Assembly: GCA_947492375.1 (NCBI GenBank)
Contig: CANLMI010000002.1
Span: 683,529-747,528, forward strand
Source: an uncultured Kordiimonas sp.
Lineage (GTDB): Bacteria; Pseudomonadota; Alphaproteobacteria; Sphingomonadales; Kordiimonadaceae
Direction: 5' to 3'
Length of the DNA: 64,000 bases
A program made the translations under genes and the position numbers. Shown here piece after piece: positions 4,839 through 53,971 of the stretch. The first letter of the stretch is position 1, and each line of letters starts with the position of its first letter. Below the pieces are notes generated by a model that was given only the letters and a program-made list of their open reading frames with translations, searched no databases and was not told the origin of the DNA.

Positions 4839-5036
4839 TTAGGCAATGATATCCGGAACAAGCATATTCTGGAGTTTCTCAAGTTGGTCTTTCAACATAA
4901 GTTTCTGACGCTTTAAACGTCGAACCTGTAATTGATCAAACGTACCTGCGCGCTCTAATGCAGTGATAGAGTCGTCCAGATCACGGTGTTGTTGTACAAT
5001 TTCAGTTAATTTTCCCCTGATGGCTTCATTACTCAT
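4839..5036 (-). CDS. YdcH-like DUF465 small protein
   Basis: A 65-aa helical protein of the DUF465/YdcH family: DDSITALE followed by DQLQVRRLKRQKLMLKDQLE is typical. The family is small, charged and predicted coiled-coil, with no firmly known function. The open frame begins with TTG at 5039, but the ATG at 5036 with GGAA 8 nt upstream is the better start. It is convergent with the diguanylate cyclase gene and divergent from the TIGR02444-like gene. A second, shorter family member lies at 6348-6518. Confidence 0.85.
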   Translation of the reverse strand: MSNEAIRGKLTEIVQQHRDLDDSITALERAGTFDQLQVRRLKRQKLMLKDQLEKLQNMLVPDIIA

Positions 5037-5127
5037 CAAGAATATTCCAATACCCTGTTACTTTATTCATGTATGATACCATGATTGCCATAAACATTAC
5101 CAGCTTAAACAGGCCAGAAACTACCAA

Positions 5128-5610
5128 ATGCCTAAAATAACTAACTCAGTTTTGCCATTAAAGCCCGATGACTTCTGGTCCTTCAGCCTGAATCTATATG
5201 CAGAGCAAACAGCTAAACAGGCCCTCCTAAGTGCCCAAAATTTGTTTGGTGCTGATGTGAACATCCTCCTTCTTTTAGCGTGGCTTTATCAACTATCAGT
5301 AAAAATCACCCCCAAAGGCATAGACATTCTAATTAAAACCTCTAATCGCTGGCAAACCAATCAACTTCACCCCATACGCGCTAAACGCTTGCAGGCGAAA
5401 GGAACGGATCAATATGAAGAATTAAAGAAAAAGGAGCTAGGCCTAGAACAAAAAGCACAACAGGCTTTAATAACTTCAATCACAAGGCAAACTTATCACT
5501 CACCTACAAAAACAGAAGCTGATATTAATCAATATCTTAAGAGCATACGCCTTGAAGGAACACCCTTGGGCACTACAATTAAATCACTTCTGGCCAGCAA
5601 AAGCCTCTAG
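5128..5610 (+). CDS. TIGR02444/DUF2390 family protein
   Basis: A 160-aa predicted cytosolic protein of unknown function. The start LKPDDFWSFSLNLYA, followed by the LLLAWLY block and then NRWQTNQLHPIRAKR, matches the TIGR02444 family as I remember it. The protein is mainly helical, with a Lys/Glu-rich central region. Its stop overlaps the convergent ubiX stop by 4 nt. The start has only a weak ribosome site (AGG well upstream), so the N-terminus is moderately certain. Confidence 0.75.
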   Translation: MPKITNSVLPLKPDDFWSFSLNLYAEQTAKQALLSAQNLFGADVNILLLLAWLYQLSVKITPKGIDILIKTSNRWQTNQLHPIRAKRLQAKGTDQYEELKKKELGLEQKAQQALITSITRQTYHSPTKTEADINQYLKSIRLEGTPLGTTIKSLLASKSL

Positions 5611-6194
5611 CCTTTCCAGCGCTTTAAATCTGGTAAATTAATATCAAACAGATCCAAGACCCGCCCAACATTATGGAAGACCAAATCATCTAACGATTCT
5701 GGTTTAGAATAAAAAGCAGGCATGGGCGGCGCTATAATAGCCCCCATTTCACTTAGCGCTGTCATCGTTCGCAAATGCCCCGTGTGAAGCGGTGTTTCCC
5801 TAACCATCAGAACAAGACGCCTGCGTTCTTTAAGAATAACGTCCGCCGCACGGCTTACAAGGCTGGATGTAATACCAGTTGCAACCTCACTCATCGTTTT
5901 AATCGAACAAGGCGCTATAATCATCCCCATAGTCTGATAGGAACCACTAGCGATTGCAGCACCAATATCTTTCGAGGGATACACCCTATCAGCAAGAGCG
6001 TGTACGCCTTTAATAGAATAGTTCGTTTCTTCCAAAAGAGTACGCTCTCCCGCTTTCGAGAGCACGAGATGCGTTTCTACGTCTTGCTCTTTCAGGTATT
6101 CAAGTGTTTTTATGCCAAAAATGGCACCGCTTGCGCCAGTAATGGCAACAATTAGGCGCCTCTTATTTTCACTTCTTACCTGAGTCTCTATCAT
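5607..6194 (-). CDS. ubiX: UbiX family flavin prenyltransferase
   Basis: A 195-aa enzyme that prenylates reduced FMN with dimethylallyl phosphate to give prenyl-FMN, the cofactor of UbiD-type decarboxylases (ubiquinone synthesis and related reactions). The N-terminus has the flavin-binding VAITGASGAIFG. The central APCSIKTMSEVATGI and the stretch RRRLVLMVRETPLH are family hallmarks, with ALSEMGAIIAPPMPAFY near the end. No ubiD is in the window. The length is normal. The gene overlaps the convergent TIGR02444-like gene by 4 nt, so they must rely on termination inside each other or on antisense tolerance. Confidence 0.93.
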   Translation of the reverse strand: MIETQVRSENKRRLIVAITGASGAIFGIKTLEYLKEQDVETHLVLSKAGERTLLEETNYSIKGVHALADRVYPSKDIGAAIASGSYQTMGMIIAPCSIKTMSEVATGITSSLVSRAADVILKERRRLVLMVRETPLHTGHLRTMTALSEMGAIIAPPMPAFYSKPESLDDLVFHNVGRVLDLFDINLPDLKRWKG

Positions 6195-6347
6195 AATTGA
6201 TTTGCCCTGATTTTCTTAACAAAGTATTTACCATGCTAAGTCCCTAAAAATAAAGCTTTAGTCTTGTTACGAATCTTTTTAATGACAAGACCACTCTTTT
6301 AATGGTCAAATAAATCATCACCAAAATAGAAGAAGGAGTGACGGATT

Positions 6348-6518
6348 ATGAGCATTCAAACGCATGTTGATTCACTAACAGCAAAGCATGCCGAGATAGA
6401 TAAGGTCATAGCAAAAGAGCAGCACCGTCCCAATCCCGATACTATTCGAATAATGCACTTAAAACGACAGAAACTCCGATTAAAGGAAGAGATGTCGAAA
6501 CTTGAGACACGACATTGA
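6348..6518 (+). CDS. Small DUF465/YdcH-like protein
   Basis: A 56-aa open frame beginning with ATG after a strong ribosome site (AGAAGGAG, about 10 nt upstream). It reads MSIQTHVDSLTAKHAEIDK, then HRPNPDTIRIMHLKRQKL, ending KEEMSKLETRH. The pattern 'D-x-I-R-x-x-x-L-K-R-Q-K-L-x-L-K-x-E' is the DUF465 core and aligns with the protein at 4839-5036. A perfect hairpin terminator follows 24 nt after the stop. The function is unknown; a coiled-coil is likely. It is easily missed because it is under 60 residues. Confidence 0.82.
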   Translation: MSIQTHVDSLTAKHAEIDKVIAKEQHRPNPDTIRIMHLKRQKLRLKEEMSKLETRH

Positions 6519-6540
6519 GAAACTACTGAATATTCAAAAG

Positions 6541-6573
6541 AAAAAGCGCATTCAAACAGAATGCGCTTTTTTA
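6541..6573. terminator. Bidirectional intrinsic terminator
   Basis: A perfect 11-bp stem AAAGCGCATTC (6543-6553) / GAATGCGCTTT (6559-6569) with a 5-nt loop. There is a T-run on the plus strand and an A-run before it, so it should terminate the DUF465 gene on the plus strand and trcR on the minus strand. Confidence 0.88.
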
Positions 6574-6598
6574 TTATATTTGATTACTTTGAAACCTA

Positions 6599-7243
6599 TT
6601 ATTCAGCAATCTCTGGGCTATCATCAATAGTTTCCCCAGATACTCCAGCCTCAACAATCTCAACTGTTTCATCAACGACAGATGCAGGTGTTGCAGTTTC
6701 TTCACCGCGGGCGCGTTTCTTTTCTTCACGAGCAGCCGCTAACTGAACAGCTTCATCAAGCTCTATCTGCTTACACAAGCCAAGTCCAACAGGATCTTGT
6801 GGGCGGATATTTTGTGCATTCCAATGAGTTTTATCGCGGATTGCCATAATTGTTGGCTTTGTTGTACCCACCAACCGACTAATTTGTAAGTCGCTTAACT
6901 CAGGATGATTACGCACCAACCACGCGATTGCATCAGGCTTATCCTGACGTTTGGAAACTGGTGTATAGCGCGGCCCTTTGGTCCGCGGAAGCGCTTCAAC
7001 AGCATCCTTCAGCAACGTCAACCGAGCTTTCGGATCATCCTGACATTTATTGATGTCATCCCATGTTAACTGCTCGTTAGATGTAGGATCTTGCCCAACA
7101 ATATTCATCCCGATCATACCATCGGCAATGCCTTGAATCTCAAGTTCATGCAGCCCACAAAATTCTGCGATCTGAGTGAATGTAAGTGCTGTATTATCAA
7201 CAAGCCATACTGCTGTAGCCATTGGCATCAAAGGTTGGTTCAT
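6599..7243 (-). CDS. trcR: Cell-cycle transcriptional regulator TrcR (DUF1013)
   Basis: A 214-aa protein of the DUF1013 family, found almost only in alphaproteobacteria. The start MPMATAVWLVDNTALTF, then QIAEFCGLHELEIQGIADG, the middle LPRTKGPRYTPVSKRQDKPD and DLQISRLVGTTKPTIMAIRD are all diagnostic. Two helix-turn-helix-like segments (about residues 20-45 and 118-140) fit a nucleic-acid-binding role; the family has been linked to cell-cycle transcription. The last ~45 residues are acidic and low-complexity (Glu, Thr, Val), probably disordered. It is monocistronic, with the terminator at 6541-6573. The start matches the family, with GGGA about 9 nt upstream. Confidence 0.9.
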   Translation of the reverse strand: MNQPLMPMATAVWLVDNTALTFTQIAEFCGLHELEIQGIADGMIGMNIVGQDPTSNEQLTWDDINKCQDDPKARLTLLKDAVEALPRTKGPRYTPVSKRQDKPDAIAWLVRNHPELSDLQISRLVGTTKPTIMAIRDKTHWNAQNIRPQDPVGLGLCKQIELDEAVQLAAAREEKKRARGEETATPASVVDETVEIVEAGVSGETIDDSPEIAE

Positions 7244-7463
7244 ACCTTTATATCCCTATATTTATTTCTCGATTCCCCGTGCAAACAGCAAAATACCATA
7301 TGCTCTCAGACAAACATGATTATCACGCCTGTCTGGCCCTAATTCCATTTAATTTTCGAAAGAAGGGCGAGAGGAATCCTCCCATATGATTAATCTGTAT
7401 CAGGTCAAACCATGAATGTCACCGCGAATATGCAGAATTTCATCAAAAGTGAATATTTCACCA

Positions 7464-8441
7464 TTACACTGATAAAATAATTTTACCCATATGGTTACTC
7501 GTTTCCATCAGAGCATGAGCTTTGTTCGCTTCAGCAAGCGGAAATACGCTATGAATTATCGGTTGCGATTTCCCCTCTTTCATCATTGGCAAAACATGCT
7601 TTTGCAACTTGTCAGCAATAGCGCCTTTAAATGTATTATCGCGCGCGCGTAGTGTGCTTCCGGTTAGCGTCAAACGCTTCAGCATGACTGGCAACATGTT
7701 AAACTCTACCTGCGGACCACTTAAAAAGGCAATCGATACATGCCTGCCATCAGGTGCGAGCAAATCAATATTTTTGGGAATATACGCGCAGCCAACCATA
7801 TCAAGCACAACATTCACACTTGCTTCGCCCTCTACCGCCTTGATTTCTTCAACAAAATCCTGAATACGATAATTGATCACAATATCCGCGCCTAGTTCTT
7901 CACAAAACCGTCGTTTTTCTTCATTGCCAACTGTTGTGATAACTTTAGCACCAATAGCCTTAGCAAGTTGAATTGCCGTTGCACCAATACCAGATGAACC
8001 GCCATGCACCAAAAGTGTTTCGCCATTTTCAAGCCCCGCACGATCAAACAGGTTTGACCAAACTGTAAAATATGTTTCAGGAATGCCAGCCGCCATTTCC
8101 ATCGACATACCACCCGGTACAGGCAACACGCATTTCTCATTGGCAGTGCAATACTCAGCGTACCCCCCCCCTGGGACCAAAGCACATACAGAATCACCAA
8201 TTTTAATGCCAGAGACATCTGATCCAATTTCTGCAACAATACCAGCTACTTCCAACCCTGGGATATCCGAGGCACCAGGTGGCGGCGGATACAGCCCTTT
8301 ACGCTGCACAACATCAGGGCGGTTAACGCCTGCCGCTTTCACTTCAATCAAAATTTCATCGCCTTTGGGAACAGGCTTACCGCGCTCACACAAGCGTAAA
8401 ACATCTGGCCCACCCGGCTCAATAATTTCAATGGCTTTCAC
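7464..8441 (-). CDS. NAD(P)H:quinone oxidoreductase, zinc-independent MDR family (PIG3-like)
   Basis: A 325-aa medium-chain reductase, probably NADPH-dependent and acting on quinones or enones. The N-terminal GroES-like domain has VNRPDVVQRKGLYPPPPG, the PIG3/TIGR02824 hallmark, and GLEVAGIV. The Rossmann domain carries LLVHGGSSGIGATAIQLAKAIGAKV. The zinc ligands of alcohol dehydrogenases are missing, as expected for this branch. The start is GTG with GGGAGG 8 nt upstream, a strong site. A run of nine C on the plus strand (8163-8171) encodes PGGG inside the gene and is a possible slippage or assembly-error point; the frame is intact as given. It is divergent from the DUF1192 gene. Confidence 0.92.
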   Translation of the reverse strand: MKAIEIIEPGGPDVLRLCERGKPVPKGDEILIEVKAAGVNRPDVVQRKGLYPPPPGASDIPGLEVAGIVAEIGSDVSGIKIGDSVCALVPGGGYAEYCTANEKCVLPVPGGMSMEMAAGIPETYFTVWSNLFDRAGLENGETLLVHGGSSGIGATAIQLAKAIGAKVITTVGNEEKRRFCEELGADIVINYRIQDFVEEIKAVEGEASVNVVLDMVGCAYIPKNIDLLAPDGRHVSIAFLSGPQVEFNMLPVMLKRLTLTGSTLRARDNTFKGAIADKLQKHVLPMMKEGKSQPIIHSVFPLAEANKAHALMETSNHMGKIILSV

Positions 8442-8567
8442 GGCACCAACCTCCCTTGATCAAAATAATATTTAGTATTCTGTTTACCTGCTTCTTAAAT
8501 TTCACTTTGTCTGGAACAAATCAGAAGGTCAATGTATGAATACAGAAGGTTTCAAGGGAGAATAAAA

Positions 8568-8762
8568 ATGGACGATGATGATCTTCCGATCAAAAAGGAT
8601 AGCCCACTAGCAGCTGTTTCAAAAGAAGACTTAAGCGAATGGAGCGCTTTCGAACTGGAAGCTCGTGTAACAATCTTAAAACAAGAGATCACACGTACGG
8701 AAGCTGAAATTAAATCCAAAGGCGCAAGCCGCGCAGCCGCCGAAGCCTTTTTCAAAAGCTAG
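8568..8762 (+). CDS. DUF1192 family small protein
   Basis: A 64-aa acidic protein: MDDDDLPIKKDSPLAAVSKE at the start, then LEARVTILKQEITRTEAEI and a KGASRAAAEAFFK tail. This is the DUF1192 pattern found in alphaproteobacteria, where the gene often lies beside a quinone oxidoreductase, as here. The function is unknown; the central half is a predicted coiled coil. The ATG at 8568 is preferred over the open frame's upstream start because AGGGAG lies 7 nt before it and the family begins with a run of Asp after Met. Confidence 0.88.
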   Translation: MDDDDLPIKKDSPLAAVSKEDLSEWSAFELEARVTILKQEITRTEAEIKSKGASRAAAEAFFKS

Positions 8763-8780
8763 TTCAATATATGTAGCAGA

Positions 8781-8816
8781 GCCCGACCTGCAGGATCTAA
8801 AATCCGCACATCGGGC
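8781..8816. other. Nested hairpin downstream of the DUF1192 gene
   Basis: Outer arms GCCCGA (8781-8786) and TCGGGC (8811-8816) enclose an inner stem GGAT/ATCC (8793-8796, 8802-8805). No T-run follows on either strand, so it is not a classical terminator. It may be a structured 3' end shared by the DUF1192 gene and the convergent hsp20. Confidence 0.4.
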
Positions 8817-8866
8817 CTGCCTTCCAGCGAGGAAAGGGAGGGAAGAAAAATAAAGCTATTCAAAAA

Positions 8867-9343
8867 TTACGCTGCTTCGATCTCAAGCTTTGTAGTATCC
8901 TGATCAATCGTTTTTGCGGATGCAGCCTTTGTAATCTTGATATTACGTGGCTTTTTATGATCTGGAATAATGCGCTTAAGCTCAATTTCGAGCAATCCAT
9001 TTACAAGGCTGGCATCACCGACATGGATTGTATCCGCTAACTCAAACCGGCGTTCAAATGCGCGCTTTGCAATACCTTGATGCAAGAATTTCCTCTCAAC
9101 GCCATTATCTTTGGCCTTGGCGGAGATATAAAGCGTGCCTTCCTGAACCGTGATCGTCACTTCATCTTCAGCAAATCCGGCAACAGCCATAGTGATTCGG
9201 TAATCATCATCGTCTAGCTTTTCGATATTATACGGCGGATATGCAGACGGCGTATCAGCATTCAAGGCAGAATCAACTAAACGATTAAGGTGGTCAAAAC
9301 CAACAGTGCTGCGAAGTAGTGGGGAAAGGTCAAAAGTTCTCAT
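8867..9343 (-). CDS. Small heat-shock protein, Hsp20/alpha-crystallin family
   Basis: A 158-aa IbpA-like holdase chaperone that keeps unfolding proteins soluble during heat stress. The N-terminal MRTFDLSPLLRSTVGFDHLN is that of class A bacterial Hsp20s. YPPYNIEKLDDDDYRITMAVAGF opens the crystallin domain, and GIAKRAFERRFELADTIHV and LVNGLLEIEL close it (IxI/V-like C-terminal contact region: RNIKI). The ATG at 9343 is chosen because GGAGGA is 6 nt upstream and the family begins MRTFDL; the open frame extends 13 residues further without support. The ribosome site sits in a hairpin of a ROSE-like leader (next entry), which predicts heat-induced translation. Confidence 0.94.
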   Translation of the reverse strand: MRTFDLSPLLRSTVGFDHLNRLVDSALNADTPSAYPPYNIEKLDDDDYRITMAVAGFAEDEVTITVQEGTLYISAKAKDNGVERKFLHQGIAKRAFERRFELADTIHVGDASLVNGLLEIELKRIIPDHKKPRNIKITKAASAKTIDQDTTKLEIEAA

Positions 9344-9347
9344 AATG

Positions 9348-9455
9348 CGTCCTCCTTCAGAAGCGACAATTTGGGCCTGCAATCAATGCCAGGCTGTTAA
9401 ATCAATAGTCTAATCAGTCGGCCCCGCTTAGCGGCAACCGATACTATTGATTTAA
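9348..9455 (-). promoter_or_regulatory. ROSE-like RNA thermometer in the hsp20 leader
   Basis: Reading the minus strand, three stem-loops precede the start codon. The first has 13-bp perfect arms (9443-9455 with 9397-9409) enclosing a small GC hairpin. The second is GCCTG/CAGGC (9375-9394). The third, at 9368-9348, pairs TGTC-(G)-CTTC with GGAGGACG: eight pairs with a single bulged G around a TGAA loop, burying the ribosome site. The anti-Shine-Dalgarno strand contains TCGCT, which fits the UYGCU signature of ROSE thermometers of alphaproteobacterial small heat-shock genes. Pairing was checked by eye; folding energy was not computed. Confidence 0.75.
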
Positions 9456-9480
9456 GAAGCAGGAATAACTTTTCAAGAGA

Positions 9481-9514
9481 TAAAAATAAAAAAGCACTCC
9501 AGAATAGAGTGCTT
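9481..9514 (-). terminator. Intrinsic terminator of rpmE
   Basis: An 8-bp stem AAGCACTC/GAGTGCTT (9492-9499 and 9507-9514). On the minus strand it is followed by a T-rich run (TTTATTTTTA), directly downstream of rpmE. Confidence 0.8.
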
Positions 9515-9556
9515 CTTAATACTTAGATACAGAAAACAATTGTTTTCTCAATATCA

Positions 9557-9784
9557 TTATTTCTTAAGTGAAAGGCCACCACTGAAACGTTTCTTAAAGC
9601 GAGCAACTTGACCGCCTTCTAGAACAGCACGTGCACCACCTGTCCAAGCAGGGTGTGACTTAGGATCAATTTCAAGTGTCATTGTGTCACCTTCCGAGCC
9701 CCAAGTTGACTTAGTCTCAAAAGTTGTCCCGTCAGTCATAACCACTTTAATAGTGTGGTAATCGGGATGAATATCTTGCTTCAT
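9557..9784 (-). CDS. rpmE: 50S ribosomal protein L31
   Basis: A 75-aa ribosomal protein of the large subunit. [19 protein letters not shown] and the later [12 protein letters not shown] are family signatures. No cysteines are present, so this is the zinc-free (C-minus) form usual in alphaproteobacteria. The ATG at 9784 is chosen: GGAG lies about 8 nt upstream and the protein then begins like other L31s, whereas the longer frame adds 15 unrelated residues. The hairpin terminator at 9481-9514 follows. The gene is divergent from the ABC exporter. Confidence 0.96.
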
Positions 9785-10012
9785 GGTCTTATCTCCAAAA
9801 ACGAGCCGCTCGTATAGGGTAAAATCCAAAGCAATGCAAGCAAGATTCTAAAGTTTTTCACAAACTGATCACGTTTAACGTGTCAAATATACCCGAAGCA
9901 GGCTTATTCGAAAATTTTATTCAGACTATTCGGTTCATTTCATTGGAAAGATAAACCGTGGGCGCTATATGTATGACAGAATCACTATCCAACATGAAAG
10001 AGGCCAATTCTT

Positions 10013-11791
10013 ATGTCAGATTCTGCAACCAAAAGCGAATTTGATCCCCCAAAGGGCAAACTGAAGAACCTGAGAACGCTCTGGTCTTTCATGCTACTTT
10101 ATAAAACCCAGATTATTCTGGCCTCTTTTTTCCTCGTAATAGCTGCGGGTACCGTCTTAGCTATTCCTTCTGCACTCGAAGGAATTGTCGATAGTTTTAC
10201 AGATAGTACCTCCAAGTCGATCAAAGACTATTTAGGTCTGCTTGTCGGAACAGTAATCGTCATGGCGCTGGCAACTGCCTTTCGGTTTTATTTTATAACA
10301 TGGCTAGGCGAAAGGGTCGTCGCCGATATTCGAAAAGCAGTTTACGAGCGTTTGATTACGCTTTCACCAGAATTTTTCGAGGTAAACCGACCCGGAGAGA
10401 TTGTATCCAGATTAACGGCAGATACAACTCTTGTTCAAAGCATCGTCGGTTCAAGCGTTTCTATTTGGGCGCGCAACATGTTGATAGCAATTGCTGGTAC
10501 AATTTGGCTGTTCATCATGTCACCTAAACTGATGGGGCTTATTTCAATTGTAATACCTCTTATAATTGGCATCATTGTCATTGTTGGCAGGCGTGTACGA
10601 GCCCTTTCGCGCACCAGCCAAGATAAAGTAGCCGATGTTGGTGCACAAGCTGCCGAGTCGCTTTCCGCTCTCAACATTGTACAAGCCTTCACACAAGAAG
10701 ACACCGAAGCCCAAAGATTTGGTGATAGAGTTGATGATGCATTTTTCGCTGCCCGACTTCGTATTCGTGTTCGTGCTTTTTTAACAGCAACAATCATCTT
10801 CCTTGTTTTCGGCGCAATTGCTCTCGTCATCTATCAGGGTTTTCAAGATGTAAGTGCAGGTGTGATGACAAGTGGTGAAATGACCGCCTTTATCTTCCGC
10901 GCTGTTCTTGTTGCCGGCGCTTTTGGCGCCCTTTCAGAAGTCTATAGCGAGCTACAGCGTGCAGCCGGTGCAGCAGGTAGGCTTGCAGAACTCCTGAATG
11001 CCGAATCAGCCATTGAAACACCGACAAACCCTGTATCGATCTCAAATAACATTAAAGGCCACATCATATTTGATAATGTGAATTTCGCCTATCCATCAAA
11101 ACAGAACGAACAAGCGCTTAAGGGTTTTTCATTAGATATCAAGCCTGGTGAAACAGTTGCACTCGTAGGCCCCAGCGGTGCTGGCAAATCAACAGTGCTC
11201 CAACTTTTGCTTCGCTTTTACGATCCTCAGTCCGGTCATGTTTCCATTGATGGCACCGACATCGCAGAAACCGATCCTACCGATTTTCGCGAACACTTGG
11301 CCTTAGTCCCTCAAGAAACAATTGTGTTTGCAGACACTGTGGCCAACAACATTCGCTATGGACGACAATCAGCGAGCGATGATGAAGTTCTAAAAGCAGC
11401 AGAAGCAGCAGCAGCGCGCGAATTTATTGAACGCACTGACGATGGTTTCGATACATTCCTCGGCGAACGTGGCACACGCCTCTCTGGCGGACAGCGTCAG
11501 CGCATAGCGATCGCACGGGCTATCCTGCGCAACTCTCCTATACTTCTTCTTGATGAAGCGACCAGCGCACTTGACGCCGAATCTGAATTGAAGGTTCAAA
11601 CCGCGCTTGATAATTTAATGGAAGGAAAAACAACACTGGTAATCGCACATCGCCTTGCCACTGTCAAAAAGGCCGATAGAATTATTGTCATGGATGAAGG
11701 TAAAATCGTGGCCGAAGGTACTCATGACGAGCTTGCGTCCAAGGACGGTCTTTATAAACGCCTAGCCGATCTTCAATTTGGCAGTAACTAG
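10013..11791 (+). CDS. MsbA-like ABC exporter (fused membrane and ATPase domains)
   Basis: A 592-aa half-transporter that should work as a homodimer in the inner membrane. Residues ~25-330 hold six membrane helices of the type 1 exporter fold; the rest is the ATPase. Walker A GPSGAGKS is at 386-393, the signature LSGGQRQRIAIARA and Walker B ILLLDEATSALD follow, and the switch histidine lies in LVIAHRLATV. Such proteins export lipids, drugs or peptides; the substrate cannot be read from sequence. No adaptor or outer-membrane partner is adjacent, and the gene appears monocistronic, so a lipid-flippase role (as for MsbA) is possible but unproven. Confidence 0.9.
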   Translation: MSDSATKSEFDPPKGKLKNLRTLWSFMLLYKTQIILASFFLVIAAGTVLAIPSALEGIVDSFTDSTSKSIKDYLGLLVGTVIVMALATAFRFYFITWLGERVVADIRKAVYERLITLSPEFFEVNRPGEIVSRLTADTTLVQSIVGSSVSIWARNMLIAIAGTIWLFIMSPKLMGLISIVIPLIIGIIVIVGRRVRALSRTSQDKVADVGAQAAESLSALNIVQAFTQEDTEAQRFGDRVDDAFFAARLRIRVRAFLTATIIFLVFGAIALVIYQGFQDVSAGVMTSGEMTAFIFRAVLVAGAFGALSEVYSELQRAAGAAGRLAELLNAESAIETPTNPVSISNNIKGHIIFDNVNFAYPSKQNEQALKGFSLDIKPGETVALVGPSGAGKSTVLQLLLRFYDPQSGHVSIDGTDIAETDPTDFREHLALVPQETIVFADTVANNIRYGRQSASDDEVLKAAEAAAAREFIERTDDGFDTFLGERGTRLSGGQRQRIAIARAILRNSPILLLDEATSALDAESELKVQTALDNLMEGKTTLVIAHRLATVKKADRIIVMDEGKIVAEGTHDELASKDGLYKRLADLQFGSN

Positions 11792-12039
11792 AAGCATTTT
11801 TTAGCTTTAGACTTAACAACAGCAGGCAAAATCTTTGAAACTTTAACATTGACGCTTTTGAATTTATCTTCCGGTATTAGCTTTCTAACCAACAAAGATA
11901 TAATAGGTTTGGGCGCCCAACGAATATCTGGTAAGGCCTTTATATTTTCCAGTGTTAATCGCCTTTGAAGATCAACAAGGCCATCAGCATGGACTTTATG
12001 ATTTAACAGAAGATAAATACAGTTATTGGCAGAGCTAGG
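11788..12039 (-). pseudogene. Start-less open frame downstream of the OmpA-like gene, possible gene remnant
   Basis: On the minus strand 83 codons are open between a TAG (12042-12040) and a TAG at 11790-11788, reading NNCIYLLLNHKVHADGLV, then LENIKALPDIRWAPKP and ending VVKSKAKKCF. The composition looks like real protein (LQRRLTLENIKALPDIRW), but there is no ATG, GTG or well-placed TTG near the upstream end. It could be the 3' remnant of a larger gene or a coincidental frame. I do not recognise a family. Its stop overlaps the end of the ABC exporter on the other strand. Confidence 0.3.
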
Positions 12040-12073
12040 CTAACGACTTCATAATTATCTATCCCAATCATTA

Positions 12074-13168
12074 TCAACGCTGTGTTAAACGCATTTCAAT
12101 GCGGCGATTACGCGAGTACGCAAAGATATTATCCCCAGGATCGATGGGCTGAAATTCACCAAAACCCGTTGCTGCAAGACGCTCAGCCGGCACACCAACA
12201 GAAACGAGAAACTCTACAACAGAAATGGCACGCGCAGACGACAATTCCCAATTGTTTTGAAACCTTGACGTTGCAATTGGGCGCTTATCAGTATGCCCAT
12301 CTATACGCAAAATCCAATCTAGCTCTGCGGGTATTTCTGATGATATAGCAATCAATGTTTCTGCAAATTTCCTTAGCTCAGCTCGCCCTTCTGGGCCAAG
12401 GTCAGCGCTTGCACTAGAAAATAATAATTCTGACGCAAAAACAAATCGATCACCCTCAATTCTAATTTCTGACCGCTTAGATAATACCTCTTTCAATCGG
12501 CCAAAAAACTCAGAGCGATACCCCACCAATTCCTCGACCTTGCTTGCTAAAGCTCTATTGAGGCGCCTGCCCAGATCAACAATAACTGCCTGATTTCGCT
12601 TATCGCGTTCATCGCTGGCATCAAGGGCTGCTTCAAGACGTGCCAATTGCTCTTGTAATGCCGTAATATTCTGCTGAAGACGTGACACTTCCGCCTGTGC
12701 ACGCTCAGAAATTGTACGCTCGCTAGCCAGTGCCTCTTCAGATATTTTATATTTTTCCGCTAAACCCTTAGCTTGTGCTTCAAAACCACTGCTAGCTGTA
12801 CTTAACTCCTGTAACCTAGCATCAGAAACTTGCAGTGCAGCACGTAACTCGCCCAACTCTTTACTCAACGCATCCCTGTCACTGTTCGCAGCCGTCAGTG
12901 ACGTAGAAAGCTGTGTCACACTATCACGCAGCGATTTATTTGCCTGTTTTTCAAGTTGTAGAAGGCTGCCCAGTTCCGCAACCTGCCCTCGTAATTCTGC
13001 CAAGGCCTGTTCACGCCCAGAAAGCGCTTGCCCTAAAAAAAACTGAGCCAACACAAACATGGAAAGTAAAAAGATGATAACCAGCAAAAGACTTGAAAGC
13101 GCATCAACAAAACCAGGCCAACTATTGTCCGAGCCACTACTGCCAATTCGCCTACGTGCACCAATCAT
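12074..13168 (-). CDS. OmpA/MotB-like envelope protein with long coiled coil
   Basis: A 364-aa inner-membrane-anchored protein. A short cytoplasmic tail precedes one membrane helix (about residues 23-48, FVDALSSLLLVIIFLLSMFV). A periplasmic coiled coil of roughly 160 residues follows, rich in Glu, Gln and Leu, and then a C-terminal OmpA/MotB peptidoglycan-binding domain with LRIDGHTDKRPI, WELSSARAISVVEFL and ATGFGEFQPI. The start overlaps the stop of the MotA-like gene by 4 nt (ATGA), so the products almost surely form one complex. The Asp in the membrane segment (FVDALSS) is where MotB carries its proton-binding residue, which suggests an ion-driven stator-like unit. No flagellar genes are near. 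Confidence 0.85.
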   Translation of the reverse strand: MIGARRRIGSSGSDNSWPGFVDALSSLLLVIIFLLSMFVLAQFFLGQALSGREQALAELRGQVAELGSLLQLEKQANKSLRDSVTQLSTSLTAANSDRDALSKELGELRAALQVSDARLQELSTASSGFEAQAKGLAEKYKISEEALASERTISERAQAEVSRLQQNITALQEQLARLEAALDASDERDKRNQAVIVDLGRRLNRALASKVEELVGYRSEFFGRLKEVLSKRSEIRIEGDRFVFASELLFSSASADLGPEGRAELRKFAETLIAISSEIPAELDWILRIDGHTDKRPIATSRFQNNWELSSARAISVVEFLVSVGVPAERLAATGFGEFQPIDPGDNIFAYSRNRRIEMRLTQR

Positions 13169-14394
13169 TCGTTAAATTCCCGGTTAATATCATCCTTAAC
13201 GACTGATATATCCGGTTTATTGGGGGACCCTGCGGGGCCAGACTGACTATCAAGTCCAGCAGCTATTGTACGCGCCAATAACTTAATTTCTGCCCGCAAT
13301 TCTTCCGCCAACATGTCAGATTGCCTACCCTGTTCCTCAATCAAGCGTTTAATGCCAACATCAAGGTTTCGGATATGATTTTTACTGGCATCATCCAGCA
13401 CAGGTGTTTGCGAAACCTGATCACGGCTACTTCCCTCTGCGAGCTTTTCAATCGCACCTGCCAGTGCACGCGTACCAGCATCAGCCCGCTGGATATTTTC
13501 CGTTATAGCAATTTCTTGACCACCCAGTTTATCAGATAACCCTGCGAGCGACTCCGCAATTGAAGTCATTGTTTCCTGCAATTGATATCGTTCACCTTCG
13601 CCTTGTTTGAGGGTTCGTTGCAAACGATCAATACCATCAGCCGTTTGCTCCATTAACGCAGTCATATAAGCACTTGGGCTTGACATACCATCTGCTTCCC
13701 CTCGCGACAGCTTGGTTACAGACGCTAACCAATCCTCAACTTCATTATAAAAACGCGTCTGAGCCTGACTCGCCTGCAAATCCAGGAATCCAAGTATCAA
13801 ACTACCTGCAAGGCCAAAAAGCGAGCTAGAAAACGCCGTCCCCATACCAGCGAGAGGCGCCTCCAAACCAGCTTTCAATTCATCAAACATTAAAGCAGCA
13901 TCAGAGCCATCCACTGTAAGGCCGTCGATAGTGCTACCAATAGCACCGATCGTCCCAAGAAGACCCCAGAAAGTCCCAAGAAGCCCCATAAAGATAAGAA
14001 GCCCAGTAAAGTACCTGCTGATTTCCCGACTTTCTTCCAGCCTCGAGACGATACCATCCAGAACCGAGCGCATCGAAAGTGCGCTAAGGCGCATACCGCC
14101 TTCTTCCTGTTCAGAAAGCAACGCAGCAGCAGGGGCCATCAATTTGGGATTAGTGGAGCGCGTACCAATTTCATGGCGTTTAAAAGCTTTGATCCATTCA
14201 ATTTCTGGGCTCAGGTCAAAAACTCGACGATACGCAAAACCAATGCCGATTAAGAGCACTAATGCTATAGCGCCGTTCAATGCTATATTCGCAAGGAAAG
14301 CCGTCGCCAACATATCCTTCAAAGCCACACCAATTGCGATAACAGCCAATAGGAACAGGCTCATCCGAATGATAAACTTTCGTGGTTTTTGCAT
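13165..14394 (-). CDS. MotA/TolQ/ExbB-like proton-channel family protein
   Basis: A 409-aa inner-membrane protein. The N-terminus has two hydrophobic segments (about 10-55), and the conserved MotA_ExbB region carries GLLIFMGLLGTFWGLLGTIGAIGS and PLAGMGTAFSSSLFGLAGSLILGFLDLQ. The last ~150 residues are hydrophilic and helical. The ATG at 14394 is preferred to the GTG at 14400: AGAGG is 7 nt before the ATG but only 1 nt before the GTG. Together with the overlapping OmpA-like gene it probably makes a proton-driven complex spanning the periplasm. TolQ-R or ExbB-D pairs have a short second subunit; here the second is a 364-aa peptidoglycan binder, so the pair is closer to MotAB in design. It is not the Zorya defence system, since the zorC/D/E genes are absent. 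Confidence 0.85.
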   Translation of the reverse strand: MQKPRKFIIRMSLFLLAVIAIGVALKDMLATAFLANIALNGAIALVLLIGIGFAYRRVFDLSPEIEWIKAFKRHEIGTRSTNPKLMAPAAALLSEQEEGGMRLSALSMRSVLDGIVSRLEESREISRYFTGLLIFMGLLGTFWGLLGTIGAIGSTIDGLTVDGSDAALMFDELKAGLEAPLAGMGTAFSSSLFGLAGSLILGFLDLQASQAQTRFYNEVEDWLASVTKLSRGEADGMSSPSAYMTALMEQTADGIDRLQRTLKQGEGERYQLQETMTSIAESLAGLSDKLGGQEIAITENIQRADAGTRALAGAIEKLAEGSSRDQVSQTPVLDDASKNHIRNLDVGIKRLIEEQGRQSDMLAEELRAEIKLLARTIAAGLDSQSGPAGSPNKPDISVVKDDINREFNE

Positions 14395-17648: not shown

Positions 17649-18605
17649 TTAGTGATTAACACGCAAATCCATGCCGGCATACATATCAGCAACCATTTCA
17701 CCGTAACCATTAAATTTCTGCGTTGGCATACGGCCAAAATTACCTATTTTACGCTCACTTGCCTGACTCCACCGCGGATGGCTAACCTCAGGGTTTACAT
17801 TCGAGTAAAACCCATATTCATTGGGTGCTGACTTTGTCCAACTAGAAACCGGTTGCTCTTCAGTAAATGTAATTCGTGCGATCGACTTGATAGATTTGTA
17901 CCCGTATTTCCAAGGGGTAATTAAACGCATCGGCGCGCCATTTTGATTAGGAATTTCTTTGCCGTATAACCCAACGACCATCAAAGTCAGAGGATTCATC
18001 GCTTCATCCATACGCAACCCCTCAACATAGGGCCAGTCGAGTACAGGCCAGCGAATACCGGGCATTTGGTCACTATCAGCTAATGTCTCGAACCGAACAT
18101 ATTTAGCGCTGCCAAGCGGATTTAATTTTTTGATAATACTGGCTAATGGAATACCAATCCATGGAACAACCATCGACCATGCTTCCACACAGCGAAAACG
18201 ATATATCCGTTCCTCAAGTGCATTCATATCAATTAGATCTTCAAAAGAATAATCGCGGGTTTTTTCAACCAATCCATCAACCTTGACATTCCAAGGTGTC
18301 GTCTTCAAACGCCAGGCATTCTTAGCTGGTTCGCTTTTTGAAGTCCCAAATTCATAATAATTATTATAATTAGTAATTGCCGCTTCAGCAGTGAGTTTTT
18401 CATCTTGTCCAAAGTCAGTTTTCTTAAAAGCTAACTCTTTAAGTGCTCGTTCACTTTGCGCATTGCTAACTGCGGAAAGGCCTACGGCTGCTGACCCAAT
18501 TGACAAACCTGCTGCACTAAGAAACTTCCGGCGATTCAAATATACATTTTCGCTCGTGACTGCGTTTTCACTTTCATCCCAGCTATTTCGTTTCTTGATC
18601 AGCAC
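17649..18605 (-). CDS. msrP: Protein-methionine-sulfoxide reductase catalytic subunit MsrP
   Basis: A 318-aa periplasmic molybdoenzyme that repairs oxidised methionine in envelope proteins. The twin-arginine signal LNRRKFLSAAGLSIGSAAVG exports it folded with its cofactor. RFRCVEAWSMVVPWIGIPL holds the cysteine that ligates molybdenum, and the sulfite-oxidase fold continues with GLYGKEIPNQNGAPMRLITPWKYGYK. The start is GTG (18605), with GGAG 8 nt upstream. It heads the msrP-msrQ pair. The order and spacing are those of the conserved MsrPQ system. Confidence 0.95.
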   Translation of the reverse strand: MLIKKRNSWDESENAVTSENVYLNRRKFLSAAGLSIGSAAVGLSAVSNAQSERALKELAFKKTDFGQDEKLTAEAAITNYNNYYEFGTSKSEPAKNAWRLKTTPWNVKVDGLVEKTRDYSFEDLIDMNALEERIYRFRCVEAWSMVVPWIGIPLASIIKKLNPLGSAKYVRFETLADSDQMPGIRWPVLDWPYVEGLRMDEAMNPLTLMVVGLYGKEIPNQNGAPMRLITPWKYGYKSIKSIARITFTEEQPVSSWTKSAPNEYGFYSNVNPEVSHPRWSQASERKIGNFGRMPTQKFNGYGEMVADMYAGMDLRVNH

Positions 18606-48882: not shown

Positions 48883-49052
48883 CCCATAGCCAATAAAGCG
48901 CTTCAATTCCAACGCGTTTTTGAGTGGTTAAAATTATAGCATGTAAAGGGACAAAGAATTAAGCTAGTCTGTCTGTAAGGTTTTTTACGTATTGAGTACT
49001 AAAAGAATATCGACACAGTTTTCCTGTGAAGAATAAAGGGGCACTCATTACA

Positions 49053-50111
49053 ATGTCGGAAAAGAAAGAGCTTTTATCACAACTTAAAATCGACCGTGAA
49101 GAAGAAACAAACGGTGGGGTGAAATGGCCGATTATTATTCTTATGATTCTGATCATAGGAATAGGAACTACTGCAAGTGTATTTTTCTTTGAAACTGACA
49201 ACAAAAAAGATCCAGAAATACTTATTGCTTCCAAAACACCGGAGCCATCAACGCCGAACCAGAAAACTGTATCAAATGATATTACTGCTCCAGAGCCAAT
49301 TCCAAGAGCCTCTGTAATACAATCAGATAATTCGGCCACCGTCCTTGACGGATCAGGCTATATAACGGCTCGCCGTATGGCCACTGTATCAGCTGAACTG
49401 ACAGGTCGTGTAATTGACGTATTGGTTGAAGAAGGAATGCAGGTTGAAAAAGGACAGGTCTTAGCGCGCCTTGACGATGCACTAGCTGTTGTAAATCTCA
49501 AACTTGCCCAAGCACAAGCTAATGCATCCAAAGCCAGAATATTAAGTGCTGAAGCCAATTTCAGAGAGGCCGAGCGCGTACTTAACCGTGTTTCAAAGCT
49601 TCAATCTAACAATTTCTCCAGTGAGGCTAGATTAACCAATAGTATTTTGAATGTCGAAACCTCAAAAGCAGAGTTAGCAAGAGCAAAAGCAGATTATGAA
49701 GTTGCCAACCTTGAAGTTTCTCGCCAGCAAGAACGATTAAACGATCACACAATCCGCGCCCCCTTCAGCGGCGTAGTAACCATTAAAAATGCTCAACCGG
49801 GTGAAATTATTGCTCCCGGATCAGCTGGCGGCGGTTTTACCCGTACCGGTATTTGCACTATTGTTGATATGACATCACTGGAAATAGAAGTGGATGTTAA
49901 CGAGGCTTTCATCGGCAGAGTATCCACCGATCAAAAAGTAGTAGCAAATCTTGATGCTTATCCCGACTGGGATATCCCAGCCAGTGTAATTGCTATTATC
50001 CCGACAGCAAACAGAGATAAAGCAACTGTGCGCGTTCGCATTAGAATAGAAGTGAATGATCAACGAATATTACCGGATATGGGTGTGAAGGTCGCTTTCT
50101 ATAAAACTTAA
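49053..50111 (+). CDS. HlyD/MacA-like periplasmic adaptor of an ABC export system
   Basis: A 352-aa membrane-fusion protein. One N-terminal membrane helix (about 20-40; PIIILMILIIGIGTTASVFF) leads to a periplasmic segment and the biotinyl-lipoyl-like half-motifs GSGYITARRMATVSAELTGRVIDVLVEEGMQVEKGQVLARL. A long helical hairpin (about 140-225) follows, then DHTIRAPFSGVVTIKNAQPGE and a beta barrel. The start at 49053 (ATG) is preferred to the GTG at 49026; AAAGGGG is about 11 nt upstream. It begins the four-gene operon with the ATPase and two permeases. It links the inner-membrane pump to an outer-membrane channel, which is not in the window. Confidence 0.9.
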   Translation: MSEKKELLSQLKIDREEETNGGVKWPIIILMILIIGIGTTASVFFFETDNKKDPEILIASKTPEPSTPNQKTVSNDITAPEPIPRASVIQSDNSATVLDGSGYITARRMATVSAELTGRVIDVLVEEGMQVEKGQVLARLDDALAVVNLKLAQAQANASKARILSAEANFREAERVLNRVSKLQSNNFSSEARLTNSILNVETSKAELARAKADYEVANLEVSRQQERLNDHTIRAPFSGVVTIKNAQPGEIIAPGSAGGGFTRTGICTIVDMTSLEIEVDVNEAFIGRVSTDQKVVANLDAYPDWDIPASVIAIIPTANRDKATVRVRIRIEVNDQRILPDMGVKVAFYKT

Positions 50112-50147
50112 TAACTATACGGAATCTGAGGTAGAGGGGAAATTACA

Positions 50148-50861
50148 ATGACTGAAGGAACAACCAACACAACTGATGAAAATTTATTCCAGTTAACTAA
50201 TGTCAACAAACGTTTCACCAAAGGCCGTGAAAGCATAACAATCTTTGATGACTTAAACATGTCTATTAAAAAGGGTGAATTCCTTGCAATTATGGGCCCT
50301 TCAGGCTCTGGAAAAACTACCCTGTTGAACATGCTCGGCGGTGTTGATCAGCCAACAAACGGCGAGGTTTGGTTCGATGGTGCGCGTATCGACAAACTCT
50401 CAGAAAATGGCCTGGCGAAATGGCGCGCTGCAAACATAGGCTTCATTTTTCAGTTTTATAATTTAATGCCTATGTTATCTGCTGCGCGAAATGTTGAACT
50501 GCCACTGTTGCTAACAAACCTCGGCAAAAAACGCCGCAAACAAAGCATAGATGCTGCGCTAGAACTGGTTGGCCTTAAAGACCGAGCAGGACATAAGCCA
50601 AAGGAAATGTCAGGTGGTCAACAACAACGCGTTGCCGTTGCAAGAGCGATTGTTTCAGACCCCAAAATGCTGCTCTGCGATGAACCAACAGGGGATCTGG
50701 ACCGCGCAACAGCCGATGAAATCCTGACCATGCTACAAGAACTCAACCGGGAATACGGCAAAACCATCGTTATGGTAACTCATGATCCTGAAGCCGCAAA
50801 ATATGCGACTAAAACTGTTCATCTGGATAAAGGAGAATTTGTCGAGAAAGGGTCAGTATAA
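50148..50861 (+). CDS. ABC transporter ATPase, MacB/LolD-like
   Basis: A 237-aa nucleotide-binding subunit. Walker [10 protein letters not shown] is at 50-58, [24 protein letters not shown] holds the Q-loop, [15 protein letters not shown] the signature, [11 protein letters not shown] Walker B, and MVTHDPEAA the switch histidine. The pattern with EPTGDLD is that of the LolD/MacB/FtsE group, which works with FtsX-type permeases. GAGGGG precedes the ATG. Its stop overlaps the next start (TAATG), and it follows the adaptor by 36 nt. Confidence 0.95.
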
Positions 50862-52012
50862 TGGGAGACCTGTATTTAATATTCAAGAATATCACTCGCA
50901 AAAAACTGCGCCTGACCCTAACACTATTCGCCACATTCATTGCCTTTATGATTTACGGCGTCATGACATCGTTTCAAAGCGCGCTAGACGCTGGTGTTGA
51001 ATTGTCTGCGGATGACAGATTGGTCGTAGTTAACAAGATTAACTTTACCCAACCACTACCAATTGCCTATGTAAACAGGATTAAACCTATCGAAGGCGTA
51101 GCTGGTACATCTCACTTAAGCTGGTTTGGCGGATACTATCAAGAACCGCAAAATTTCATGCCCATGTTTGCTGTGGAACAAGACACCCTCTTAGAAGTTT
51201 ATAATGAAATAGTCATTCCAGAAGAGCAAAAACAAGCATGGCTTCAAAACCGGCAAGGTTTGTTAGTAGGGGAAAAAGCTGCCCAAAATTTTGGTTGGAA
51301 AGTCGGCGACCGCGTTCCAGTTTCTTCCAACATATATTCACGAAAATCAGGCGGGCAAACCTGGGATTTTGATATTGAAGCAATTTATAAAGGATCAGAC
51401 CCCAAATTCGATACAAGCGGTGTTTATTTTCATTTTAAGTATTTTGATGAGGCACGCACCTTTGGCCAAAATACAATTGGCTTTATCGCTGTCAGGACAA
51501 CCGATTCAAAACTGAATGAACAAGTAATTGCCGCGATTGATGACCAGTTTGCAAATTCGCCGTTTGAGACAGAAACAGTACCTGAAAAAGCCTTTAACAA
51601 AGCATTTATAGAGCAAATTGGAAATATTGGTCTAATCATCACCTTTGTCGTATTGGCTGCCTTTTTTATCATTCTGGTAATCGTTGGAAACTCGATGGCA
51701 CTTGCTATTAGAGAACGCACCAATGAAATTGCGGTTATGAAAACACTCGGTTTCAAATCAGGCCGTATCTTTATAATGGTCCTTGGAGAGTCGCTCCTTA
51801 TATCATTCATGGGAGGCGGGTTAGGACTGCTCATTGCATCTGGGCTAACCGCAGGAATCTCAGAAAATATACCACAGTTACCACCATTGATCATTGATCA
51901 ACCTATCGTCTTGGAATCAATAGGCTTCATGCTTTTGCTTGGCTTAGTGACAGGTATAATCCCTGCGATATCCGCCCTTAGGTTAAACATTGTAACCGCA
52001 CTTTCACGGTAA
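50861..52012 (+). CDS. FtsX/MacB-type ABC transporter permease 1
   Basis: A 383-aa inner-membrane permease. An N-terminal membrane helix (about 20-38) is followed by a large periplasmic MacB-like domain (residues ~45-255) and three C-terminal helices (about 260-375) with the FtsX motifs MALAIRERTNEIAVMKTLGFKSGRIFIMVLGESLLISFMGG. The gene overlaps the ATPase by 1 nt and is followed by permease 2 after 11 nt. The two permeases probably form a heterodimer. Confidence 0.93.
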   Translation: MGDLYLIFKNITRKKLRLTLTLFATFIAFMIYGVMTSFQSALDAGVELSADDRLVVVNKINFTQPLPIAYVNRIKPIEGVAGTSHLSWFGGYYQEPQNFMPMFAVEQDTLLEVYNEIVIPEEQKQAWLQNRQGLLVGEKAAQNFGWKVGDRVPVSSNIYSRKSGGQTWDFDIEAIYKGSDPKFDTSGVYFHFKYFDEARTFGQNTIGFIAVRTTDSKLNEQVIAAIDDQFANSPFETETVPEKAFNKAFIEQIGNIGLIITFVVLAAFFIILVIVGNSMALAIRERTNEIAVMKTLGFKSGRIFIMVLGESLLISFMGGGLGLLIASGLTAGISENIPQLPPLIIDQPIVLESIGFMLLLGLVTGIIPAISALRLNIVTALSR

Positions 52013-52023
52013 GGAGGACATCA

Positions 52024-53202
52024 ATGAAATTATTAGAGCAAATCTGGATTGTCATTATCATGAATCTGCGGAGTATCCCGCAACGTTTTGGCATGTCAGT
52101 GGCCACAATTTTTGCCGTGGCGGCCGTTGTTGGCGTGCTTCTGTTCTTTCTCGCTATGGGCAATGGATTTAAAGATACATTAGAGGGTGCTGGTTCTGAA
52201 AATGTAGCTGTTGTAACGCGGGTAGGTTCCCAGTCTGAACTAAATAGCTCGCTGTCGAGAGAACAGGTTAATTTGTTATCAACGGCGCCAGGTATCGCAA
52301 AAGACCTTGAGGGCAATCCTATATATTCCGGTGAATTATATGTCATCGTGGATGGCTATAAAAAAACCACCAATTCAAAAGTCAATATTCCTATGAGGGG
52401 CTTATCGACCGAGGGCTTCGCACTGCGTGAAAATGTAGATATCATTGAGGGCCGAGTTTTCACGCCCGGCAGAAATGAAATTATCGTCGGAGAAAGTGTT
52501 CTACGCGAATTTTCAGGCTTTGAACTTGGAACAAAAGTAACATTCGCAAAAACCACATGGGAAGTCGTAGGGATTTTCTCGACCGGCGGCTCAGCATTTG
52601 ACAGCGAATTGTGGGCTGATACACGAACAGTACAAGATCAATTCAGGCGCGGCAGTAGTTTCCAGACTATGCGAATTCGTTTGGAAACCCCAGGTGATAT
52701 TCAACCCTTGATCAATTATGCTGAAGCAGACCCACGGTTAAATGTAAAAATTGAAACCGAGGCAGAGTATTTTTCAACACAAAGTAACGCACTCAACAAT
52801 ATCGTTGTTTTTGGCTGGATAATCAGCGTCGTTATGGGAATGGGGGCTCTTGCAGGTGCGCTCAACACAATGTACACATCTGTGGCAGCCCGCGCTGGCG
52901 AAATAGCAACCCTGCGTGCAATAGGGTTTTCCAATATTTCAGCTTTTTTTGGCACTGTCGCTGAAGCAATTATTTTATCACTCATTGGCGGTGCGACAGG
53001 TATTATAATCGTCTATTTTTTCGTCGACGGAGCAAGCGCAGCAACGATCGGTGCCAGTTTTACTCAAGTGGTCTTCAGCTTTACCCTTTCGGCTGACCTT
53101 CTCCAACAGGGTATGCTACTAGCATTTGGAATTGGTATCGTTGGTGGCTTTTTTCCGGCATTTCGCGCAGCACGTATGCCTGTGGTCACTGCATTTGAAT
53201 AA
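52024..53202 (+). CDS. FtsX/MacB-type ABC transporter permease 2
   Basis: A 392-aa permease homologous in layout to permease 1: an N-terminal membrane helix (about 20-45), a periplasmic domain, and three C-terminal helices with SVAARAGEIATLRAIGFSNISAFFGTVAEAIILSLIGGATG, the FtsX core. AAGGAGG precedes the ATG, the best ribosome site of the operon. The two distinct permeases, one ATPase and one adaptor form a complete MacAB-like export complex except for the outer-membrane protein. A hairpin terminator follows (53242-53301). Confidence 0.93.
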   Translation: MKLLEQIWIVIIMNLRSIPQRFGMSVATIFAVAAVVGVLLFFLAMGNGFKDTLEGAGSENVAVVTRVGSQSELNSSLSREQVNLLSTAPGIAKDLEGNPIYSGELYVIVDGYKKTTNSKVNIPMRGLSTEGFALRENVDIIEGRVFTPGRNEIIVGESVLREFSGFELGTKVTFAKTTWEVVGIFSTGGSAFDSELWADTRTVQDQFRRGSSFQTMRIRLETPGDIQPLINYAEADPRLNVKIETEAEYFSTQSNALNNIVVFGWIISVVMGMGALAGALNTMYTSVAARAGEIATLRAIGFSNISAFFGTVAEAIILSLIGGATGIIIVYFFVDGASAATIGASFTQVVFSFTLSADLLQQGMLLAFGIGIVGGFFPAFRAARMPVVTAFE

Positions 53203-53738
53203 AGATCATATCTGAAACTAAAAATTTCTGCGAAAAATAATAAAGCGGGCTTATTTTCAAGTACTAATAAATTCTTGATTTTAGCTAATTAGCCCGCTTT
53301 TACTACAATACTTTAATCTACTGTTATCCACACATAATATCATATGCGATATAAGAAATGGGCAATATACTTTTATACCTCACTCAACTAAATTGATGAA
53401 AACACATAATTCCGATCAACCACTGAGAAAGTATAAATACAGACAAAGGCACATTATTGTAAAAATGCTATAAAATTCTTAACAATACAACCTATCGAGA
53501 AAATCATAAAAACATTATATACTAATTTAATCGAGCTATTATCATATATGGAAGCCCATGTGGTGGGAAAGTATAATACTTTCAAACGATTAAAAAATTC
53601 AACTCATGTAAATTCACAAAATAACAATTAAATACAACAATAATTGATATTCTTAAAAGTGTAATATTATTGACGCAACAAACCTATAGTGGTTTATGTA
53701 TCCTTTAGGGTTATTTTAAAAACTTTTAGGAGTATAAA
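53203..53738. other. 536-nt AT-rich region between the export operon and the 52-aa gene
   Basis: Very AT-rich, with many short poly-A/T runs. It includes the operon terminator (53242-53301) and the upstream region of the 52-aa gene. A 25-codon frame at 53396-53473 has no ribosome site and is not called. A 16-bp dyad AAACC-TATAGT-GGTTT lies at 53680-53695; TATAGT (53685-53690) would be a good -10 box and TTGACG at 53670 a -35-like hexamer, but they are too close together to be one standard promoter. The promoter of the 52-aa gene is therefore only approximate. Confidence 0.4.
53242..53301 (+). terminator. Terminator-like inverted repeat after the export operon
   Basis: A perfect 10-bp stem AAAGCGGGCT/AGCCCGCTTT (53242-53251, 53291-53300) with a 39-nt loop, then TTAC. 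The loop is long for an intrinsic terminator. Confidence 0.5.
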
Positions 53739-53897
53739 ATGAATAAAATTAGCGAACTAAATGAACTTGAAATTAATGCTGTATTTGGTAGTGGGAATGG
53801 CTTGTTTGCTACACAGGAAGATGCAGAGAATTGTGATAACCCAGCCACTGGGATAGCCCAATTACCGCCACAAACAGCGCTACCGTTTCCTCTATAG
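53739..53897 (+). CDS. 52-aa peptide with a double-glycine-type leader, possible secreted peptide precursor
   Basis: A short gene with a strong ribosome site (AGGAG, 6 nt before ATG). Residues 1-18 read MNKISELNELEINAVFGS. Numbering backward from Ser18 as -1, Leu is at -12, Glu at -8, Ile at -7, Val at -4, and Gly-Ser at -2/-1. This is the consensus of double-glycine leaders cleaved by C39-type peptidases (Gly-Gly, Gly-Ala or Gly-Ser). The 34-residue remainder starts GNGLFATQEDAENCDNPATG, has one cysteine (residue 32) and a Pro/Gln-rich end. No C39-containing ABC protein or modification enzyme is in the window, but a MacAB-like export operon is upstream. The product family is not recognised. 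Confidence 0.7.
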   Translation: MNKISELNELEINAVFGSGNGLFATQEDAENCDNPATGIAQLPPQTALPFPL

Positions 53898-53930
53898 AAA
53901 TCGATTTTAGATTTTCATATAATATTAAAA

Positions 53931-53971
53931 GTAAAAGGGCAGAGAAATAGTTCTTTACCCTTTTATTTTTT
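53931..53971 (+). terminator. Terminator after the 52-aa gene
   Basis: A stem AAAAGGG/CCCTTTT (53933-53939, 53958-53964), extended inward by GAGAA/TTCTT across a small internal loop, is followed by a T-rich run (TATTTTTT). It lies between the 52-aa gene and the convergent korB. Confidence 0.78.

Follow-up and report, generated by a model that had tools for sequence, protein, structure and literature searches.

The 64,000-nucleotide stretch of DNA analysed here (the window), from an uncultured marine Kordiimonas sp., carries a short gene for a 52-residue peptide precursor, and both the gene and its double-glycine-type leader are confirmed as real. The sequence family is new, while its working principle is a known one: it belongs with the double-glycine-leader peptides exported by peptidase-containing ABC transporters. 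Judged from its sequence and from the surroundings of its homologues, the gene product is most probably an unlinked (orphan, relocated) precursor that would be cleaved and exported in trans by a CvaAB/TolC-type system. The features of the region are listed in Table 1.

Table 1. Peptide gene, its signals and the upstream operon, in window coordinates
Feature	Position	Strand	Basis
MacAB-like operon (HlyD-type adaptor, ABC ATPase, two FtsX permeases)	49026..53202	+	Pfam; kept in relatives without the peptide
Inverted repeat 3' of the MacAB-like operon	53242..53300	+	14-nt arms, 93% complementary, 31 nt apart
Ribosome-binding region (AGGAG), directly 5' of ATG	53721..53738	+	sequence; start of DNA similarity to Kordiimonas homologues
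52-aa precursor peptide gene, MNKISELNELEINAVFGS / GNGLFATQEDAENCDNPATGIAQLPPQTALPFPL	53739..53897	+	translation; two homologues in G009, one in G011
18-residue double-glycine-type leader, predicted cleavage after Gly-Ser	53739..53792	+	motif and PSSM against controls; leader kept in homologues that adjoin C39-ABC genes
Predicted mature peptide, 34 aa	53793..53894	+	inferred from leader
Terminator-like hairpin, U-rich 3' arm	about 53927..53970	+	fold -18.2 kcal/mol, z = -3.94

The peptide gene and its leader

The reading frame translates to MNKISELNELEINAVFGSGNGLFATQEDAENCDNPATGIAQLPPQTALPFPL. Translation and inspection of the letters agree with the original prediction in the frame, the sequence and the leader residues, and its strong ribosome site is likewise present, as an AGGAG before the ATG, with a stable terminator-like hairpin behind the gene. 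The hairpin is absent from the output of a simple terminator scan, probably because its stem contains an internal mismatch and the U-run lies inside the 3' arm. The predicted mature peptide is acidic (pI about 4.05) and non-hydrophobic (GRAVY -0.28), contains one cysteine and has a calculated monoisotopic mass of 3509.68 Da, if unmodified.

The leader carries Leu at -12, Glu at -8, Ile at -7, Val at -4, Gly at -2 and Ser at -1, and thus has every element of the double-glycine pattern (L-12, E-8, hydrophobic residues at -7 and -4, G-2 and a small residue at -1). It ends in Gly-Ser, not Gly-Gly; the leaders of the homologues end in Gly-Ala. The strict motif L...E[LIVM]..[VM].G[GSA], required within the first 35 residues, follows a single one of the 457 ATG starts in the window, that of the peptide gene, and none in 40 first-order Markov sequences of window size. 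A position-specific scoring matrix (PSSM) was trained on eleven leaders from C39-linked peptides that lie outside the family of the window peptide. It ranked the peptide frame first in the window (20.2 vs 13.3 for the next best), and on 30 random 64-kb sequences the maximum was 19.7 and the mean 10.8. By itself this result is good, not overwhelming; it is the homologues that settle the reality of the gene.

Homologues and colicin V-type clusters

The search for homologues covered 100 relatives, one genome per species, as well as sampled subsets at the order, class and phylum level. Among the 100 relatives, clear homologues are encoded in two genomes of the Kordiimonas family (two copies in G009 and one in G011), with identities of 48, 44 and 48% to the window peptide. 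Their alignment contains 20 invariant columns, running from the leader through Cys32 and including M1, K3, E6, L7, N8, E11, V15, G17, G19, N20, G21, F23, A24, E27, D28, A29 and C32. Similarity extends from the ribosome site across the leader and ~14 residues into the mature part (GNG[LF]FA[TS].EDA..C), a segment with one conserved cysteine, and the C-terminus is variable. At the DNA level, blastn matches window positions 53721-53824, which start at the ribosome site and reach roughly codon 29, with the homologous loci at 71-75%.

An order-wide search (398 genomes) returned no members beyond these homologues, and the gene is absent from G001, the sole other member of the genus that was searched. 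The class-wide search added one distant and weak candidate, from G495 in a different family of that class (MLFELNENEISAVNGAGDGTFFAEKAN...), located directly 3' of an adaptor-like ORF. Two phylum-wide matches (E about 0.005) looked spurious on inspection, and a match in G066 (E 0.021) was set aside, as it lies opposite a 231-aa ORF. The window peptide has no Pfam match, and its NCBIfam matches are all below the cut-off. A plasmid origin is without support from PLSDB, in which tblastn found no match to the peptide, and a phage origin is without support from IMG/VR, which holds no relative of it.

The original prediction had staked itself on conserved homologues with purifying selection in the leader. 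The homologues were found, so that on this count it is not refuted, and selection could be assessed by a weak test, in which one close pair of homologues gave pS 0.14 vs pN 0.04. For the window gene against its homologues pN is lower than pS over the first 33 codons, a comparison limited by the small number of sites and by synonymous change close to saturation. These substitution patterns support a maintained coding sequence, short of proof for the window copy.

In both genomes the homologues lie directly between the gene of an HlyD-type (CvaA-like) adaptor and that of a protein with the Pfam domains Peptidase_C39, ABC_membrane and ABC_tran, the arrangement that colicin V-type export loci show. 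This placement bears out the predicted reading of the peptide as a secreted precursor. The clusters hold further double-glycine-leader peptides, including a Gly/Ala-rich one of 83 aa in the G009 locus (L006, G009:C1:112000-131500), which is followed by a hydrophobic protein of 63 aa (17699-18301); the pair is a candidate microcin and immunity protein. At 14200-14360 of the same locus, a piece of sequence like the beginning of the C39-ABC gene (IIRQNEAAECGLVSFAMVVGYYGF) lies between two of the peptide genes, which suggests that these were multiplied by duplications including part of the transporter gene.

Proposed export in trans and the MacAB-like neighbour

Since the homologues reside inside colicin V-type export clusters, cleavage and export of the window peptide most probably fall to a transporter whose gene lies elsewhere in the genome. 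The genome encodes three C39-ABC loci (L011, L012 and L013), each with an adjoining adaptor gene, in accordance with the earlier expectation that processing would call for a protein encoded outside the window or for a different peptidase. All three sequences show the Cys, His and Asp triad that CvaB requires (PMC3335142), and several TolC-type (OEP) proteins are encoded as well; the bacteriocin signal model TIGR01847 has no match in this genome. Whereas the homologues are linked to C39-ABC genes in G009 and G011, the window gene is not: the locus of its proposed transporter, L012 (G000:C2:257 kb), is on the same contig at a distance of ~480 kb.

L012 is nevertheless the most likely partner because of the identity of its ABC protein and the likeness between the window leader and that of a same-genus counterpart. 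Its ABC protein is 74% identical to the transporter of G009 (68% for L013). At the counterpart locus in G001, where the ABC protein is 88% identical to that of L012, the leader of the native peptide (ISELNINEIEMVNGG) shares 9 of 15 positions with the window leader (ISELNELEINAVFGS). The C39 domain of the CvaB-like transporter would recognise the leader in trans and cleave it after Gly17-Ser18, and the 34-residue acidic, single-cysteine peptide would then leave through the adaptor and a TolC-type channel. Against this reading stand the distance to the proposed transporter, the lack of an adjacent immunity or processing gene, and the Gly-Ser cleavage site, since Gly-Gly and Gly-Ala are more common there.

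The other two C39-ABC loci each encode a peptide or precursor-like protein. L011 (G000:C4:36000-54000) contains, at 6835-14171, an adaptor, the C39-ABC protein and a 65-aa Cys-rich peptide with a double-glycine leader, along with an ATP-grasp peptide maturase-like protein and a MacB/FtsX permease protein; it is probably a second RiPP cluster. L013 (G000:C5:16000-34000) contains, at 4905-10199, the C39-ABC protein, an adaptor and a PoyD-type radical SAM epimerase (TIGR04517, E 2.9e-132). Its precursor-like protein of 193 aa has a double-glycine-type site and a Val/Ala-rich core; the N-terminus is Nif11-like by eye and no Pfam model matched it. L013 is probably a cluster for an epimerised RiPP.

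While the original prediction stood as to a secreted precursor with a double-glycine leader, its suggestion of the upstream MacAB-like operon as a possible exporter did not, and the operon is judged to be outside the peptide system. Export by this operon, with a separate peptidase removing the leader, would be in keeping with the adjacent position of the peptide gene on the same strand, about 540 bp away, and with the general ability of MacB-type pumps to move peptides from the periplasm. It is made highly improbable by the comparison with relatives. The last permease of the operon has matches in 20 of 31 genomes, its own included, and in the loci examined from the 19 others, up to about 1.5 kb past the permease, neither the peptide nor a convincing leader-type small ORF occurs; within the genus, an amidohydrolase-like gene follows instead. 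Conversely, the homologues of the peptide adjoin C39-ABC genes and occur with no MacAB-like operon nearby, so conserved linkage, by which a MacAB-exported peptide would be recognised, was not found. The operon also closes with an inverted repeat of its own, probably a terminator parting it from the peptide gene. The por genes, which lie 3' of the peptide gene in the window, are located apart from the operon in the same genus, also without the peptide, and the por/MacAB join is not conserved even there. The peptide gene thus sits at the junction of two gene blocks that lie well away from each other in G001. Its neighbourhood is read as accidental. Between the operon and the gene (53203-53738) there is no notable ORF; GC content in this interval is low (26% at 53250-53749 vs about 45% around).

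Two other explanations accept the leader and differ on the fate of the peptide. That G001 lacks the gene could reflect either a recent acquisition or a relic whose expression has ceased. A decaying relic, moved as a copy from its cluster and no longer expressed or exported, might account for the isolated position, the rearranged junction with its low-GC surroundings, the absence from the other genome of the genus and the variable C-terminus. Such decay is unlikely given the intact frame, the strong ribosome site, the terminator-like hairpin, the conserved residues kept across about 50% divergence and, from few sites, the excess of pS over pN in the first 33 codons. The fact that conservation continues through residue 32 and then falls might instead indicate that the segment behind Gly-Ser is an extended recognition region, the product being the short variable C-terminal piece, recut or modified at its cysteine. 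This appears improbable, because the spacing of the leader fits cleavage after residue 18 exactly, and no modification enzyme adjoins the gene or lies between the adaptor and ABC genes of the homologues.

Possible roles outside the cell

Class II microcins involve five parts, namely a precursor, an immunity protein, a C39-ABC transporter, a membrane fusion protein and TolC (PMC9746304), of which four kinds are present in the genome, the membrane fusion protein and TolC among them. A cognate immunity gene was sought close to the peptide gene (53203-53738 and the downstream por genes) and not found, and for this reason the peptide is not filed as a class II microcin. It is possible, without being the favoured outcome, that it acts as a class II microcin-like bacteriocin whose immunity determinant is unlinked or non-dedicated: the export genes are of the microcin type, and the homologue clusters hold a Gly/Ala-rich double-glycine-leader peptide followed by a small hydrophobic, possible immunity protein. 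The acidic, non-hydrophobic make-up and the missing adjacent immunity gene speak mildly against a classical pore-forming microcin, and double-glycine-leader peptides have other roles, such as in biofilm development of Synechococcus (PMC4997328). Taken together, these points make signalling about as plausible as a microcin-like role. A more speculative proposal is that the acidic single-cysteine family, so far confined to Kordiimonadaceae, serves as an intercellular signal and not as a toxin, and that some members now lie outside their cluster and rely in trans on a shared transporter.

The resemblance to colicin V and other class II microcins (CvaA-CvaB-TolC) consists in the double-glycine-type leader, the position of the homologues between CvaA-like adaptor and C39-ABC genes, and the catalytic triad of the transporters. 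Unlike in those systems, the window gene is unlinked to its presumed transporter, its leader ends in Gly-Ser, and the acidic core falls into none of the families of Pfam or, above cut-off, of NCBIfam. EbfG1-4 of Synechococcus elongatus are also small double-glycine-leader peptides, secreted via the C39-domain transporter PteB and serving a non-killing role; the ebfG genes are transcribed together as a set, and the likeness is one of general kind, with no sequence relation claimed (PMC4997328). The Gram-negative double-glycine peptides of Dirix et al. 2004, as cited in PMC4997328 and PMC9746304, share the small ORF, the leader type and a cognate C39 ABC transporter. Going by the account in PMC9746304, that genome screen searched near C39 ABC genes, and by such a design it would miss an unlinked gene like the one in the window.

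A small-peptide gene can be detected from its own letters though it lies far from its presumed transporter, and screens for microcins or double-glycine peptides that depend on linkage would pass over it. The gene adds a sequence family that Pfam does not match at all and NCBIfam matches only below its cut-off. A literature search for Kordiimonas together with bacteriocin gave, judged by titles and counts, passing mentions of both and no relevant report, and the host belongs to an alphaproteobacterial order for which the literature searched holds no relevant bacteriocin report. Should it prove to be a signal, the peptide would make a tractable example for studying how marine Gram-negatives communicate by peptides.
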